This document shows, piece after piece, positions 1 through 38,387 of a stretch of 38,435 nucleotides of DNA. A program made the translations under genes and the position numbers. The notes under the pieces are model-generated. The model did not search any database. It saw only the letters and a program-made list of their open reading frames with translations, and was not told the DNA's origin. This stretch comes from a virus. Every line of letters starts with the position of its first letter. Position 1 is the first letter of the stretch. Where the stretch lies: positions 1 through 38,435 of the IMG/VR virus record IMGVR_UViG_3300042922_000789; one strand, given 5' to 3'.

Positions 1-60
1 ATTCTAATCAAACAAATATTTATAGATAATGAGGATATAAAAATAGAGTGGAATTTTTGA
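1..60 (+). CDS. 3' end of a serine recombinase gene, partial at window start
   Basis: Codons from base 1 read ILIKQIFIDNEDIKIEWNF then TGA, the same as the C-terminus of the integrase at 36927-38321. The body of the gene, if present, lies left of the window. It could be an intact recombinase of a neighbouring element or only a duplicated end. This fragment has no function of its own that can be read here. Confidence 0.75.
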   Translation: MLIKQIFIDNEDIKIEWNF

Positions 61-80
61 GTTCCACTCTTATTGTTTTT
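45..80 (+). terminator. Rho-independent terminator (left copy)
   Basis: AGAGTGGAA (45-53) pairs perfectly with TTCCACTCT (62-70). The recombinase stop codon lies in the loop and a T-rich tract follows. It is identical to the terminator at the right end. Confidence 0.8.
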
Positions 81-95
81 AGTTATTTATTTAGG

Positions 96-142
96 CACAC
101 ATGGACTAACTATGTCTCTTGATAAGCCATGTATGCACATGG
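96..142. other. Probable attachment-site core region (attL)
   Basis: The switch from repeated to unique sequence falls after GATAAG at 126. ACATGG (99-104) and CCATGT (127-132) form inverted arms around a 22-bp centre, and CCATGT/ACATGG (127-142) is a second dyad. Imperfect dyads around the crossover are usual for large serine integrase attP sites. Joining the right-end sequence up to GATAAG with CCATGT here gives the inferred attP of the excised circle. The exact crossover dinucleotide cannot be fixed from one strand arrangement. Confidence 0.55.
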
Positions 143-239: not shown

Positions 240-2558
240 TTATACTGGCTTTGGCAGCTTACTAATAAATTTTGCATAACCTTTCTGATATTTAATTAAA
301 TTTAAAGAAGTAAACCTTTTCAAATTCAATAAGTCTTCTATCTCATATGGTTTCAATTCATCTTCAAGTTCTTTATATACTGTCTTATCTGCTCCATGCA
401 GTAGCATATATGAGCTGTTACCACTCTTAAGCTCTTCCTTCAATGTACCAATCTGATTGAGGTAGTGGCAGCTGAATACATACTTATTCCCAAACTTACG
501 CACCTGGTTAATTGTTTCTTTAATAAGCCTAGCTGCAGTTGGAGCTTGATATAGTTCATCAATTATTTCATGGCAGCGTGTGGGTTGATTATGCATAGAC
601 CCTCTTATCTTGGTTGCTAAAATTATCTTACTGCAGAAATACGTTACCAACACATTCTTAACCATCTTGCTTCCGAAGGTGTCCTCTGGCATCTTGATCA
701 GGATTACTTTGCCCTGCTCCATTGCCTGAACAAAGTCAATATTGTTGGAGCAGCCTTTGCTGTACATGTATTTTAAATATATGTTTTCTCTGATAAGGTT
801 TATACGGTCCAGTATCCCATCAATCTTGCTATCTCTTGTTCCAGTTAGCTCAGATAGAACTTCTTTTGTATCAGGATCCTTTGCAATGGTATATTCATTT
901 AGTTCTTCAAGCGCACCTATTTCTTCATCTAGAAGCACCTTCATAGACTCTGGTATTGCATCAATGTATTCCTGTCTCTTTCTATAATCTTGAAGACACA
1001 TTATAGCTGATTTTATATTTATATCAAAGAGAAAAGCTACGTTGCATGCTGCAGATAAATATCTGCGCATTTTGGAGGTAAGTGGAAGACCTTCATTGTT
1101 GATACTATCAACTAAAGCCAATGTCTGTTCAGCCATGAGATTAGCAGCCTTAAGTCTCTCAAAATCACTTTTATCAGTTCGCTTGATCTCATTATACCCA
1201 AGACCCTGTAGTTGAGATTCGTTAGAGCAATCAATGATAACGAGATCTTCCTTTGGCACTACTCTTTCAATATCATCTGATAACTCACAATTTTTTATGA
1301 AGTCAATAGCTATTACTGCTTCTTTGCGCTTCCTAGCATATTTTACATAGTTAGCAATATAAGTAGTTTTCCCACAACCAGGAGGACCCACAATCGTCAA
1401 TGGTAGATTCCCAAGGTTATACTCATCCGGCAGATAGGAAGGGTATTCTTTGCCTTTAAATGTGGCATCTCCAAGGTATATATATCCTTTATTTATTTCC
1501 TCTGGTATTGGAGATTCAAGCACATCTACTTTTTCAATATTAGAGTGCTGTTGCAATAATGTCCTCCCCGGTATTTGAATTAAGTTAGAAGCTTCCTCTG
1601 TGCTGATAATGTTAGTGGATACACCTTTGATTTTGAAGTCCTCTATACTATATACACACTTAACAGCTCTATATGAAAGGCTGTTATCTTCCGACAAGGT
1701 TTTATAACTCTCGCATACCGCTATAGCATTATTCTTAGCTCTTGTTTCGCTTTGGCTCTCACTGATCACCAGCATCTGTGCATCTAATATATTTCTATCT
1801 GACTTTCTCAAGGTTGTAGCAGAAAGCATTTTAAACAGCTGCATACCTGGACCTTCATCCTTACGTCCTTCAGTTATATTTTTGCCATCTCCTATGAAAT
1901 TGGCCATTTCTTCAAAAGTCATAATGAATATCTTCATAATTTCATCTATTAGGTACATCATCATATAGCCAATATTAAGTTTTTGCTTATCAATTGGAGT
2001 ATTCTTTTTTATCTTCTCCATAGTATCACGGTGTTTATTGTACCAGGCGGATTGATTAGTCGGCATGAAGTTATATAATACCCCTACTCGATCATCCTGT
2101 TCCATAATATCAATTACATTCAAAATACTGTTCAGCGGCTCATTACTCTTTTTATCAACCTTAAGGCTTAGAGCATCCTCTTTTCGATATACCAGTTCAT
2201 GCTTCACAGCTTTACTTGAGAACATCGGCACTTTTGCAACTCTTTGTATGGTAGCTTTTGGCCATGTATTGCTACACTTCTCTAATACCAACTTTTCAAA
2301 CTCTTCCGGAGTAATAATATAAAAGCTTACCTCTTTCAAACTTATATCTATAAAAAATGCTGTTTTATTTGGCAGCCTATAGGTAAGCTGGTGACTCTTA
2401 AACTTTAGTCTATCGATAGGAAGGTTATACATATTACATATAACCCTTGCTATATTTTCGCTGTCATAGTTTCTTATTGAGGTATCAGGAATTATCTTTA
2501 GTATGCTGTACTTTGGATTATAGATTTTAAAGAATTCGCTTGCTTTCATCCACTTCAT
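240..2558 (-). CDS. VirB4/HerA-class membrane-complex ATPase
   Basis: 772-aa ATPase of the HerA-FtsK superfamily. A Walker A motif GPPGCGKTT is at residues 391-399, a Walker B-like acidic pair IIDELYQAP at 666-674 (D667, E668), and a later polar motif FSCHYLNQ near 695-702. The first ~370 residues have no motif that I recognise, which fits the family pattern of a variable N-terminal domain before the motor. VirB4 and HerA relatives power type IV secretion or DNA translocation at the membrane. ATG start follows AAGGTGA and lies 2 bp from the upstream stop, so it is translationally coupled to two small membrane proteins in virB2-B3-B4 order. No relaxase or VirD4 partner is in the window. HerA-type helicase or FtsK-like pump are alternatives. 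Confidence 0.72.
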   Translation of the reverse strand: MKWMKASEFFKIYNPKYSILKIIPDTSIRNYDSENIARVICNMYNLPIDRLKFKSHQLTYRLPNKTAFFIDISLKEVSFYIITPEEFEKLVLEKCSNTWPKATIQRVAKVPMFSSKAVKHELVYRKEDALSLKVDKKSNEPLNSILNVIDIMEQDDRVGVLYNFMPTNQSAWYNKHRDTMEKIKKNTPIDKQKLNIGYMMMYLIDEIMKIFIMTFEEMANFIGDGKNITEGRKDEGPGMQLFKMLSATTLRKSDRNILDAQMLVISESQSETRAKNNAIAVCESYKTLSEDNSLSYRAVKCVYSIEDFKIKGVSTNIISTEEASNLIQIPGRTLLQQHSNIEKVDVLESPIPEEINKGYIYLGDATFKGKEYPSYLPDEYNLGNLPLTIVGPPGCGKTTYIANYVKYARKRKEAVIAIDFIKNCELSDDIERVVPKEDLVIIDCSNESQLQGLGYNEIKRTDKSDFERLKAANLMAEQTLALVDSINNEGLPLTSKMRRYLSAACNVAFLFDINIKSAIMCLQDYRKRQEYIDAIPESMKVLLDEEIGALEELNEYTIAKDPDTKEVLSELTGTRDSKIDGILDRINLIRENIYLKYMYSKGCSNNIDFVQAMEQGKVILIKMPEDTFGSKMVKNVLVTYFCSKIILATKIRGSMHNQPTRCHEIIDELYQAPTAARLIKETINQVRKFGNKYVFSCHYLNQIGTLKEELKSGNSSYMLLHGADKTVYKELEDELKPYEIEDLLNLKRFTSLNLIKYQKGYAKFISKLPKPV

Positions 2559-2559
2559 G

Positions 2560-2832
2560 CTACATCACCTTATTGAATATCATGATTGTCAAGTATACGA
2601 AGAATGCCATCTGAGCATATATCCTAGCCTTCTTTACCCCTAAGAGATAAACAACTAAACTGATACAGAATATCGATAGGCATACATAAAAGCTAAGATT
2701 AACTGCAGTGTTCCATAACCAAAGCAACAGCTCCTTTGGATGGGTAATATAGTGATATACACTTTTTATAATGTCGAAGTACTCTCTTGTGGACTCATTG
2801 AACCTTTTTAAGCTATCTATCATATCCCACAT
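2560..2832 (-). CDS. Small two-helix membrane protein, VirB3-like position
   Basis: About 90 aa. An N-terminal amphipathic stretch (MIDSLKRFNESTREYFDI) precedes two or three hydrophobic segments (about residues 38-63 and 68-88). The ATG at 2832 preceded by AGGTG is preferred; a GTG at 2841 directly after the upstream stop is an alternative. It sits between the secreted small protein and the ATPase with almost no spacing. VirB3 proteins are small membrane proteins encoded immediately before virB4, so position and size suggest that role, but there is no diagnostic sequence motif. Confidence 0.55.
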   Translation of the reverse strand: MWDMIDSLKRFNESTREYFDIIKSVYHYITHPKELLLWLWNTAVNLSFYVCLSIFCISLVVYLLGVKKARIYAQMAFFVYLTIMIFNKVM

Positions 2833-2841
2833 ACACCGCAC

Positions 2842-3123
2842 CTACCTCCCAAAGGTTTTATCAATCATAACGAATACATTTGGCACCACATAACTTGCGA
2901 TATAGGTAAGCACGCAGGTTATTACAAGTTTCTTACCTTTATCGTCATGTTTAAGCATTTGTAAATACAATCCATAGATACTGGAAAAAATCCCTACCCA
3001 AAACAAACCTTTTCTAAAAGCTGTAAGGAGCTTCCAGAAGTCATCATCTCCACTGGTAGCATTAACAGTTGTAGTTAATATTAATATAGCAATTAGTAGA
3101 AACACTAATAGTTTTTTATACAT
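2842..3123 (-). CDS. Exported small two-helix protein, VirB2/TrbC pilin-like
   Basis: 93 aa. The N-terminus MYKKLLVFLLIAILILTTTV is a clear signal peptide, with a likely signal peptidase site after VNA (residues 20-22). The mature part has an acidic DDD cluster and two hydrophobic segments (about residues 39-58 and 67-88) separated by a basic HDDKGKK loop. This architecture is that of VirB2/TrbC pilins. SD is AAGGAGGG, spaced well. It is first of a tightly packed three-gene operon with the ATPase. A membrane subunit of an unrelated transporter cannot be excluded. Confidence 0.6.
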   Translation of the reverse strand: MYKKLLVFLLIAILILTTTVNATSGDDDFWKLLTAFRKGLFWVGIFSSIYGLYLQMLKHDDKGKKLVITCVLTYIASYVVPNVFVMIDKTFGR

Positions 3124-3165
3124 AAAAACCCTCCTTATTGTAGATAATATAATTGAGGTGATATC

Positions 3166-3243
3166 ATGGGATTTATAATATTTGGCGGTTGCTGCATAGC
3201 AGCATCAGGAGTGCTTTATCTTATAGAATTGGCTTATCATTAG
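3166..3243 (+). CDS. Possible 25-aa hydrophobic peptide on opposite strand
   Basis: ATG preceded by GAGGTGAT with good spacing opens a 25-codon frame, MGFIIFGGCCIAASGVLYLI..., which is almost wholly hydrophobic. It runs opposite to every neighbour, between the pilin-like gene and parR. Such short hydrophobic peptides resemble type I toxins, but no antisense RNA promoter is evident. It could be chance. The remaining DNA to 3351 holds a GC-rich dyad near 3300-3325 and no other gene. Confidence 0.3.
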   Translation: MGFIIFGGCCIAASGVLYLIELAYH

Positions 3244-3351
3244 ATTATTCGAGGTGTACTAGCATAATTTGTAAATTTCAATCATACGCTATATTGCGTA
3301 GCGCAAGCGGGCTTGCACGCTGGAGCTGCAGTATACGCGGCTATGGCCATA

Positions 3352-4424: not shown

Positions 4425-4442
4425 ATATACTTTTACCTCCTT

Positions 4443-4516
4443 TTATATATTTGTATATACTACTTGTTGTGTGTTTCGTATATCCTTTGTTATATTTATA
4501 TATCTATGTATATATA
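4443..4516. other. Candidate centromere-like (parC) repeat region
   Basis: This AT-rich gap upstream of parM contains GTATAT at 4453, 4478 and 4508 plus several TTATAT words. Centromeres of parMRC systems lie upstream of parM and consist of short repeats. The repeat is degenerate and partly low-complexity, so this is suggestive only. The parM promoter must also lie here. Confidence 0.35.
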
Positions 4517-4531
4517 TTTATTACTAAATTG

Positions 4532-4566
4532 GTAAAAAAAATAAGCCCTATTCTTCTTTAGGGCTT
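4532..4566 (-). terminator. Rho-independent terminator after the small RHH gene
   Basis: AAGCCCTA (4543-4550) pairs with TAGGGCTT (4559-4566); on the minus strand the stem is followed by TTATTTTTTTT. The stop codon of the 51-aa gene lies in the stem. It separates that gene from parMR, which therefore needs its own promoter. Confidence 0.8.
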
Positions 4567-4703
4567 TTCTTCAACATATCTTCATATATTAATTGTTTTA
4601 CATATGCACTAGGACCTATTAATGCGCTTTGTTCCTTGAGAAACTTTATAATCTTTTGCTCAAGATCTGTCTGCTTAAAACTGATCAGTATCTTCTCAGG
4701 CAT
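4548..4703 (-). CDS. 51-aa ribbon-helix-helix-like protein
   Basis: MPEKILISFKQTDLEQKIIK starts a 51-aa protein whose pattern (short strand, two helices with SAYVKQLIYEDM) parallels the ParR-like protein at 3352-3549. It lies immediately upstream of the candidate centromere and ends in a terminator. It could be a second repressor of the parM promoter or a divergent ParR. The SD is weak (GGGGTG further upstream). Confidence 0.6.
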   Translation of the reverse strand: MPEKILISFKQTDLEQKIIKFLKEQSALIGPSAYVKQLIYEDMLKKSPKEE

Positions 4704-4775
4704 ATAAATCACCCCACACTAGTATTTTATGGAATTATTCTATGTAAGATGATTAAAATCCTTTTTATAATATCT

Positions 4776-27614: not shown

Positions 27615-28613
27615 TTATTGAGCATGATGTTTTTTATATGCTTCCTGCTTTCGCTGTTCAGACACCGTTGCATAAATTTGAGTAGTAGCAGGATCCTCAT
27701 GCCCGAGCAATGCTTGTACATCAGCAAGATTTGCACCATTTTCTAATGCTAATGTTGCAAAGGTATGTCGCATGATATGTGGATGTATATTTTTCTTTAT
27801 TCCAGTACGTACTGCTATGATTTTAAACGATCTTTGTATAGCTCTATTGCCTAACCTAGTGTATGGCTTGCGTTCAGTTACAAATAAAGCTTCACAATCA
27901 TCTGTACGACTCATTAAATACTTTTTTAAATGGTAGAAAGCTTTGTAGCTAAAGCAAACTATTCTTTCTTTGTTACCCTTACCAATAACTTTTGCCGTCA
28001 TGTTTTGCCAGTTTATATCATCCTTACTCATTCCCGATATTTCAGATAGTCGGCTGCCTGTTGCGTAGAAGGTTTCTACTAACGCCCTTTCTCTAAGCGT
28101 TTTGCACCCTTCTCTTAGCAACTCAAATTCCTCAACATTTAGTGACTTCACTATGCGCTTTTCAGCTTTAATCTGATTAATCTTTCTCATTGGTGATTTA
28201 TTTATATAGTCTTGATTTTCTAGCCAAGTGAAGAAACTGCGTAATATTGATATCTCCGTTTGTATTGTAGAATTCTTAAGTGTTTTGCTCTTTGAATACT
28301 CTGCTAAAAATAATCGTATGTCCATGGCTGTAATGTCCTCAACATTCTTTTGCATAAACATTGCAAATCTTTTCAAGTGCTGAGCATATCCTTTTAGGGT
28401 TAACATGGACAGCCCGTCCAGTTTTTTCGATGCTAAGTATATCAATACTCTATCTCTTATATTTGACATAACTGTCAAGGCTGTCTCCATGGGTTTTAAT
28501 TCATAATCATTTAATACTAATTCCAGTGTTGTTCTGAGGTTGTTTTGGTCTATACCAGGCTGCTCCATCATAACTTTACTTACTATTTTTATAATCGCTT
28601 CATCTTTATACAT
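27615..28613 (-). CDS. Tyrosine recombinase, XerC/D-like
   Basis: 332 aa. After a ~65-aa N-terminal extension there is a SAM-like core-binding domain (about 68-150) and a complete catalytic domain: R188 (ATGSRLSE), K212/K215, H279-x-x-R282, H305 (LLGHED) and Y314. It is not beside the attachment ends. Plausible roles are resolving circular phage dimers or inverting DNA. A 40-bp dyad lies just upstream of its start and could be its target or operator. Confidence 0.9.
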   Translation of the reverse strand: MYKDEAIIKIVSKVMMEQPGIDQNNLRTTLELVLNDYELKPMETALTVMSNIRDRVLIYLASKKLDGLSMLTLKGYAQHLKRFAMFMQKNVEDITAMDIRLFLAEYSKSKTLKNSTIQTEISILRSFFTWLENQDYINKSPMRKINQIKAEKRIVKSLNVEEFELLREGCKTLRERALVETFYATGSRLSEISGMSKDDINWQNMTAKVIGKGNKERIVCFSYKAFYHLKKYLMSRTDDCEALFVTERKPYTRLGNRAIQRSFKIIAVRTGIKKNIHPHIMRHTFATLALENGANLADVQALLGHEDPATTQIYATVSEQRKQEAYKKHHAQ

Positions 28614-36926: not shown

Positions 36927-38321
36927 TTGAAACGAGCTGTAATTTACGTGAGAGTTTCGACACAAGAGCAGGCCATGGAAGGTTATTCTATACAAGCACA
37001 AAAGGATAGATTAATCGCATACTGCATGGCTAGAGAGTGGAATATAGTAGATATATTAGTCGATGGCGGTTATTCAGGAAGTAATCTTGATCGCCCAGGC
37101 ATGCAAAAGCTGATAAAGGATGCCAGGGCTAATAAATTTGACGTTGTGCTTGTCTACAAGCTCGATAGACTGAGTAGAAGTCAGAAGGATACCTTATACC
37201 TTATAGAGGATGTTATACTGCGTAATAGGGTAGATTTTGTATCAATGAATGAGAGCTTTGATACTTCTTCTCCATTCGGCAGAGCGATGATAGGTATACT
37301 TTCAGTGTTTGCTCAATTGGAGAGAGAACAGATAAAAGAGCGTTCTCTGATGGGTAGAGTAGAAAGAGCCAAAGAAGGATTGTTTCACGGTGGCGGATTT
37401 ATACCTATTGGTTATGATTATGTTGATGGACAACTCGTTATTAATGAATTTGAAGCCATGCAAATCAAGGATATATTTGACATGTATGTTAATAAAGGAT
37501 TTGGAATAGAACGAGTTAGACAGGAGCTAGAAAGCAAATATGATAATAAGCACTCAGGATGGACTAGTCACACTTCTATAACTAATGTTATGGAGAATCA
37601 ATTATATACCGGTGTAATAGCATTTAAGGATGGAATCTATCCTGGCCAACACGAAGCTATTATTTCGAGTGAGATGTTTGCTGCAGCTCAGAGAAAAAGG
37701 ACACAAAATAAAGAAATAAATCAAAAGGCTTTTAAACGCCTGGCATTATTATCAGGTTTCATTTTTTGCAGGCATTGTGGTGGTAGATATTTTCTCAGAT
37801 CCAAAAGTGCTGAACATAAATACTATACATGTTATTCTAGAGCTAAGAATAGACCCCATATGATTAAGGATCCTAACTGCAGAAATAAGATATGGTCTTT
37901 AGAAAAAATGGACAAGTATATCGAAGATGAAATATTCAAGCTTGCGACTGATAAGGATTACTTTAACTCCTGCATGGAGAAGCCGGTGGAGGAGAGAAAT
38001 GATAAGGGCATACAAAAACGCCTTGCTGAAATAGAGAAGCAAGTAGAGAAGCTCATGGAGTTATATCAATTTGATAAAATACCTATTGATCAACTTAGTA
38101 ATAAAATAGACAAGCTTCATAGTGAAAAAAAAGAACTATCACAAATGACAGAGGAAGTACCTCAAGAGGTTGCAGATATATCTGGAATAGAAGATTTACT
38201 GGCAGAGTTGCCTGTGATATGGGAGTACTCAAATTTGGGTGAGCGTCAGCAGATGTTAAGTATTCTAATCAAACAAATATTTATAGATAATGAGGATATA
38301 AAAATAGAGTGGAATTTTTGA
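36927..38321 (+). CDS. int: Large serine recombinase (phage integrase)
   Basis: 464 aa; TTG start with GGAGCAGG upstream. The resolvase domain spans residues 3-145 with catalytic S11 (YVRVST), KLDRLSRS (78-85) and ERE/ERS helix; a recombinase domain follows (about 160-260), then a zinc ribbon with C281, C284, C302 and C318, and a coiled coil (about 360-425). It catalyses attP x attB integration. It is the last gene before the right attachment site, and its final 19 codons are duplicated at the left end. It can act with a directionality factor for excision, not identified with certainty. Confidence 0.95.
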   Translation: MKRAVIYVRVSTQEQAMEGYSIQAQKDRLIAYCMAREWNIVDILVDGGYSGSNLDRPGMQKLIKDARANKFDVVLVYKLDRLSRSQKDTLYLIEDVILRNRVDFVSMNESFDTSSPFGRAMIGILSVFAQLEREQIKERSLMGRVERAKEGLFHGGGFIPIGYDYVDGQLVINEFEAMQIKDIFDMYVNKGFGIERVRQELESKYDNKHSGWTSHTSITNVMENQLYTGVIAFKDGIYPGQHEAIISSEMFAAAQRKRTQNKEINQKAFKRLALLSGFIFCRHCGGRYFLRSKSAEHKYYTCYSRAKNRPHMIKDPNCRNKIWSLEKMDKYIEDEIFKLATDKDYFNSCMEKPVEERNDKGIQKRLAEIEKQVEKLMELYQFDKIPIDQLSNKIDKLHSEKKELSQMTEEVPQEVADISGIEDLLAELPVIWEYSNLGERQQMLSILIKQIFIDNEDIKIEWNF

Positions 38322-38387
38322 GTTCCACTCTTATTGTTTTTAGTTATTTATTTAGGCACACATGGACTAACTATGTCTCTTGATAAG
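38262..38387. repeat. Right copy of 126-bp terminal direct repeat (attR side)
   Basis: Identical to 1-126. It runs from codon 446 of the integrase through the terminator to GATAAG; divergence starts at 38388. The distance between copies gives an element of 38,261 bp. Confidence 0.93.
38306..38341 (+). terminator. Rho-independent terminator of the integrase gene
   Basis: AGAGTGGAA (38306-38314) and TTCCACTCT (38323-38331) with the stop codon in the loop, then TATTGTTTTT. Confidence 0.82.

Follow-up and report, generated by a model that had tools for sequence, protein, structure and literature searches.

Introduction

Single cases of the gene cassette described here were known before from phage SPP1, the Tyroviruses and B. 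pumilus phages. In SPP1, gp31.1 and gp31.2, both small membrane proteins, and gp32, a VirB4/TrwB/FtsK-like ATPase that comes after them, were proposed to form a trans-membrane translocon; gp32, which is 75% identical to a protein of GBK2, is non-essential and expressed early (PMC6316719). That arrangement, which our locus shares, was recognised in SPP1 and GBK2 only and, unlike the locus studied here, was described without a ParM; a pilin nature, wall hydrolase fusions and a micropeptide were likewise not described for it (PMC6316719). A second resemblance is to the Tyrovirus block gp11-gp18, which unites ParM, an RHH protein, a type IV secretion protein and a replication-relaxation protein and is interpreted as plasmid-derived genes, in a passage that does not deal with the small membrane genes (PMC9703825). 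Similarly, in phages Novomoskovsk and Bolokhovo a single genome combines a TrbC/VirB2 protein, an RHH protein, Replic_Relax and an FtsK/SpoIIIE-like ATPase; these were interpreted as leftovers of plasmid segregation, and a motor-pilin machine was not proposed (PMC9658697). For phage Grass, an FtsK/SpoIIIE-like protein and a ParM were reported, and the authors pointed to the role of SpoIIIE in pumping DNA into the forespore (PMC3853049).

The closest comparison beyond phages is with Gram-positive conjugative type IV secretion systems (T4SS). In five clostridial ICE-like loci (L134-L138), a VirB4-class ATPase gene also comes right after that of a small membrane protein, and in one of them (L137) a processed propilin-like protein is encoded further upstream. 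However, these loci encode a VirB6-like protein with 5-6 transmembrane (TM) helices and a PrgI extended at both the N- and the C-terminus, whereas the phage units have neither. Our literature search found no paper that treats the whole module or tests it.

Results

A conserved three-gene operon at the left end of a temperate phage genome

The window, by which we mean the whole 38,435-nucleotide stretch of DNA that was analysed, is an IMG/VR virus record (IMGVR_UViG_3300042922_000789) with the usual gene layout of a temperate phage, including genes for terminase, portal, head protease, tape measure, a peptidase-type endolysin, a DnaD-like replication protein and an antirepressor, and with a serine integrase gene at its right end (Table 1). 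Three ORFs, all on the minus strand, occupy the left end, separated by gaps of 9 bp (0 bp with the GTG start of the middle gene) and 1 bp. They lie where the initial annotation had placed a tightly packed trio in the order virB2-virB3-virB4, and the exact 126-bp repeat shared with the integrase end confirms that the trio stands beside the left attachment site. Comparison with three close relatives gave dN/dS values of 0.02-0.15 for the three genes (dS of 0.5-2.9), and the trio is therefore constrained by strong purifying selection.

The two repeat copies are identical up to base 126/38387, where the crossover probably took place. The tail of the integrase gene is present in the left copy too, so that the left end resembles the circular (attP) form; the window may thus combine a left end in the circular form with a right end that is a host junction in the integrated form. 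The length of 126 bp is unusual for the att sites of a serine integrase. A promoter scan returned no more sites than shuffled sequences, and an Rfam search of the window gave no match.

Table 1. Coordinates of the operon, its upstream neighbours and the genome ends in the window.
Feature	Position	Strand	Evidence or description
Left copy of 126-bp direct repeat (attachment site)	1..126	.	exact repeat of 38262-38387
Bidirectional terminator, 3′ of ATPase gene, within att repeat	45..70	.	11-pair hairpin and T tract
Predicted VirB4-class P-loop ATPase, 772 aa	240..2558	-	phrog_5156; Foldseek vs R388 TrwK/VirB4; clostridial VirB4 profile
Two-helix membrane protein in VirB3 position, 90 aa	2560..2832	-	ATG start; GTG at 2841 possible, giving 93 aa
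Putative VirB2/TrbC-like propilin, 93 aa	2842..3123	-	leader 22 aa, mature chain 71 aa, two helices flanking a basic loop
Spacer between RHH gene and trio, 228 bp	3124..3351	.	93% mean column identity, four relatives
Divergent micropeptide ORF, 25 aa, single TM	3166..3243	+	strong SD GAGGTGAT
RHH-like DNA-binding protein (ParR/ParG-like), 65 aa	3352..3549	-	phrog_18533, 1.5e-11
ParM-like actin, 296 aa	3534..4424	-	Pfam ALP_N, 1.5e-22; phrog_691 partition protein, 1.4e-47
AT-rich imperfect direct repeats upstream of parM	4425..4514	.	39-nt pair, 72% identical, spacing 55
Second short RHH-like protein, 54 aa, upstream of ParM-like gene	4548..4712	-	phrog_4223
Tyrosine-integrase family gene, mid-genome, besides the terminal serine integrase	27615..28613	-	phrog_1, 2.8e-57
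Large serine integrase, 464 aa	36927..38321	+	Pfam Resolvase 2.2e-42, Recombinase, Zn ribbon; phrog_95 integrase 1e-126
Right copy of 126-bp direct repeat	38262..38387	.	overlaps integrase 3′ end, last 60 bp of the gene

The 772-aa protein resembles VirB4-class motors

Over its full length the ATPase matches phrog_5156 (E 4.6e-104), a family with no assigned function. Pfam gave P-loop matches only, with TrwB_AAD_bind as the best; no curated VirB4 family model matched, and the Pfam and NCBIfam hits comprised generic AAA, TrwB_AAD_bind and weak TraD. The protein has a Walker A motif (GPPGCGKTT), an acidic Walker B pair (D667-E668) and an R687-K688 pair. Across 22 relatives of 20-95% identity, G394, G396, K397, E668, R687 and K688 are invariant and D667 is conserved in at least 90%.

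Structure comparison pointed in a more specific direction. When an AlphaFold2 model (pLDDT 82) was searched against the PDB with Foldseek, full-length R388 TrwK/VirB4 ranked first (E 2.8e-14 to 8.5e-12), with ∼900 aligned columns compared with ∼600 for HerA and ∼450 for TrwB, both of which ranked lower; the motor domain of Thermoanaerobacter VirB4 was also matched (TMt 0.63). The overall TM-scores of these matches are low (∼0.3), so that they give moderate support to a class assignment, and not to close kinship, and at that level suggest that the protein carries a VirB4-type N-terminal domain and a C-terminal motor. In profile comparisons, five clostridial VirB4 proteins scored a probability of 95.7 and a VirD4-like protein 94.2, and the conserved IDE...RKxG stretch aligns as in VirB4. 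We gave up deciding between VirB4 and VirD4 from the profile alone, as the two are hardly separable by these scores. With the full-length structural match and the clostridial profile, the earlier assignment of the protein to the VirB4/HerA class holds, and the prediction of a VirB4/VirD4-superfamily ATPase with a VirB4-class motor is well supported.

A propilin-like protein and a membrane hairpin precede the ATPase

Conjugative VirB2/TraA propilins have a leader of ∼50 aa and a mature chain of ∼70 aa. The first small protein of the trio has a predicted signal peptide with cleavage at VNA|TS, followed by two further helices. Among 52 family members, alanine occupies the xxA signal-peptidase-like site in 49 (as [A/V]xA in 41 of these), and the predicted mature chain, with a median of 76 aa, consists of two helices and a basic loop. 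Five of the 52 match TrbC. Members from Bacillus phages match TrbC/VirB2 and T4SS_pilin at scores just below the curated cut-offs; the L022 member reaches E 4.4e-6 for TrbC/VirB2 (27.3 bits, curated cut-off 27.9) and 2.6e-5 for T4SS_pilin. A Pfam search with the window's own 93-aa protein gave no match, and Foldseek with the pilin-like model returned nothing below E 1.6. The family matches and the processing site bear out the initial description of an exported, two-helix VirB2-like protein, and a VirB2-like propilin is a well-supported prediction from these sequences.

The second small protein is a conserved hairpin with a basic loop and a G-K/R-K motif, and its gene stands immediately 5′ of the gene for the VirB4-class ATPase, as does that for VirB3. 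We dropped an identification as VirB3 or PrgI by sequence: Pfam VirB3 was matched by 2 of 40 members at E=0.19, PrgI was not among the matches, and the conserved N-terminal part of PrgI is missing. Of the proposal that this is a VirB3-like protein, position and hairpin topology thus stand while the sequence match does not, and the protein is VirB3-like by position and topology only.

The unit recurs in divergent phages and extends beyond the trio

Two scans of viral contigs yielded ∼80 distinct relatives, and the lytic phage SPO1 carries a comparable cassette. In this context survey, which the initial annotation had proposed, two small TM genes are packed directly before the ATPase gene in nearly all of the ∼80 loci; the exceptions are one locus with four small genes (L012), SPO1 with three, and D6E and 035JT001 with one recognised. 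Because gene order is kept in ∼80 divergent loci, chance is excluded as its origin.

An M23 peptidase, absent from the window, is encoded in 21 of 60 related records. Distances were computed for 18 virus records, in 17 of which it lies no more than 1.2 kb from the ATPase. It is fused to the second membrane protein at the N-terminus (L063-type) or the C-terminus (L066-type), or is encoded by a separate gene adjoining that of the ATPase, upstream or downstream. Given a basic loop in the cytoplasm, both fusion types would put the hydrolase outside. In a clade that includes L069 and L087, genes for a separate M23 peptidase and for a protein with a DndB domain come after the ATPase gene (L087:8538-10384, with the latter at L087:8999-10384; PF14072, 2.4e-19), and on an Alicyclobacillus plasmid (NZ_CP104066.1), which has two M23 copies, an M23 gene immediately precedes the ATPase gene.

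The absence of a relaxase, VirD4, VirB6 and wall hydrolase, as first annotated, was confirmed in the window record (PF03432, PF02534, PF04610 and PF01551, respectively). Among related records, the VirD4 coupling protein (PF02534) was found in 0 of 60, VirB6/TrbL (PF04610) in 0 of 31 and relaxase PF03432, the only relaxase family looked for besides Replic_Relax, in 0 of 31. Replic_Relax was found in 2 of 60 records, and genes of this family adjoin the ATPase gene in SPO1 and vB_BcoS-136. With VirB6, VirD4 and relaxase undetected, a complete conjugation apparatus is absent.

Upstream of the trio, an RHH-like gene was found in 58 of 79 loci, and 64 of 65 RHH matches were upstream and on the same strand. 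A ParM-like actin is encoded in 31 of 83 loci; where its gene adjoins that of the RHH adaptor, as in the window, features of ParMRC are present. The repeats upstream of parM are, weakly, a candidate centromere or promoter by their sequence.

The spacer between the RHH gene and the trio contains two conserved elements. One, at 3244-3351, is ∼90% identical in relatives, exceeds the synonymous sites of the adjoining genes in conservation and holds GC-rich palindromes; it is possibly a regulatory RNA or an RHH operator. The other is the divergent micropeptide ORF. In 20 of 52 loci, an SD-led hydrophobic ORF of 17-30 aa occupies the same position on the strand opposite to the trio, compared with 0.9% of shuffled spacers and random windows and 0 of 52 on the operon strand, under rules that were fixed after the window case and a looser first scan and applied identically to the controls. 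Its start precedes the first trio gene by 18-93 bp in almost all cases, with exceptions at 196 bp (L055) and overlapping the start of that gene (L018). Family searches with the micropeptides matched no family, and the four closest copies differ by too few substitutions to prove coding. The putative micropeptide, previously unseen, is part of the module and may resemble a type I toxin or act as an accessory to the channel.

The unit therefore exceeds the trio: the RHH protein, often ParM, the divergent micropeptide and, in relatives, M23 belong to the module. The earlier picture of a stand-alone three-part unit was right about its standing alone and incomplete in its count of parts.

Known carriers are almost all phages of endospore-forming genera

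With the window ATPase as query, 56 phage records were found at E≤1e-5, all from genera of endospore formers (phages of Bacillus, Geobacillus, Lysinibacillus, Brevibacillus, Alicyclobacillus and Terrisporobacter) except two records of the "deep-sea thermophilic phage" D6E, in which no host is entered; GBK2 is among the carriers. SPO1 gp27.4 as query gave 68 records, one of them a partial match in a Microcystis phage, and no homologs were reported in Staphylococcus, Enterococcus, Listeria or Lactobacillus records. In contrast, the window terminase has homologs in hundreds of phages of Lactococcus, Streptococcus, Staphylococcus and Enterococcus, and the SPO1-group capsid has them in 343 Staphylococcus, 69 Enterococcus, 55 Listeria and 27 Lactobacillus records. 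Host counts were also compared by a Fisher test, which was discarded since the two record sets were not matched. In Clostridia, 1 of 20 weak-to-strong matches came from a genome without SpoIVA; as SpoIVA is present in 336 of 398 sampled genomes (a base rate of 84%), a test for an association with sporulation there has no power. The restriction to hosts that form spores is suggestive of a link with sporulation, confounded by phage lineage.

Discussion

We propose that the operon encodes a phage-borne, stripped-down T4SS-like envelope machine that moves or maintains phage DNA, a reading whose chances of being right and wrong we judge to be about equal. The VirB4-class ATPase would dock on the small membrane hairpin that takes the place of VirB3 and pull signal-peptide-processed, VirB2-like pilin subunits from the membrane into a short pilus or pore. 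The M23 wall hydrolase that many relatives encode, fused to the VirB3-position protein or adjoining, would open the peptidoglycan there, and the RHH protein, with a ParM-like filament where present, would bind the phage genome and bring it to the machine or keep it there. Most likely, it is the DNA of the phage itself that the complex would move or maintain, at the envelope or from one compartment to another. Assembly, the formation of a pore or pilus and a DNA cargo are inferred, the last from the linkage to RHH, ParM and Replic_Relax genes. Motor, pilin, membrane hairpin and wall hydrolase are together most simply explained by such a machine, which is moderately supported as such. Counted against it are the lack of VirB6, VirD4 and relaxase, of sequence support for VirB3 and of a pilin fold match, the near equality of VirB4 and VirD4 profile scores, and the finding that SPP1 gp32 is non-essential (PMC6316719). 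Because no relaxase, VirD4 or VirB6 was found, the module falls outside the conjugation systems as these are defined, although it may work like their core.

One alternative is that RHH, ParM and the ATPase form a segregation-replication cassette of an extrachromosomal prophage, in which the ATPase would pump DNA at division and there would be no pilus or channel across the wall. Authors of single-genome studies interpret parts of the cassette in this way (PMC9658697, PMC9703825), and both the linkage of ParM, RHH and Replic_Relax and the ATPase gene on the Alicyclobacillus plasmid are in its favor. However, it leaves the processed pilin-like protein and the recurrent wall hydrolase fusions unexplained, ParM is missing from most loci, and the window phage has an integrase; we consider it unlikely.

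It is similarly doubtful that the machine is a septal DNA pump that, with ParM and RHH, brings the phage genome into the developing spore (virospore formation) or holds it there. The host range of the ATPase, the lack of such a restriction in the terminase and capsid controls, which unlike gp27.4 are common in phages of non-sporulating Firmicutes, and the independent remark on the FtsK/SpoIIIE-like protein and ParM of Grass (PMC3853049) are what favor this idea, whereas phage lineage alone may account for the restriction, the test in Clostridia was powerless and one partial match came from a Microcystis phage. A broader proposal, which we also regard as improbable, is that phages of endospore formers share an organelle dedicated to DNA delivery, composed of a type IV pilin/motor core, wall hydrolase, ParM-type filament and membrane micropeptide, through which the phage genome would reach the forespore or an adjacent cell with no virion involved.

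Another possible function is exclusion of superinfection or conjugation, by a membrane complex that stops other DNA from entering the lysogen or infected cell. The SPP1 counterpart is expressed early and dispensable (PMC6316719), and in many temperate relatives the unit lies between the lysis genes and the integrase/repressor, a usual site of genes for lysogenic conversion. Exclusion does not predict linkage to partition genes. Moreover, the exclusion proteins known to us need neither a VirB4-type motor nor a wall hydrolase, and we think this function rather improbable. Finally, despite distant homology to conjugation proteins, we reject a remnant of a decayed ICE as highly improbable, given that the compact unit recurs in ∼80 divergent phage loci and, in comparable form, in lytic phages, is conserved under purifying selection, and lacks the other ICE genes in the records tested.

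If the T4SS-like reading is true, a type IV secretion-like machine, of a kind so far known from plasmids, ICEs and pathogens, is also encoded by tailed phages themselves, the textbook lytic phage SPO1 among them, and the scattered annotations of SPP1 gp31-32, the Tyrovirus block and the FtsK/ParM pair of Grass would join into one module whose role would be directly testable in laboratory strains of B. subtilis. The suggested link with sporulation would bear on how phage genomes get trapped in spores.
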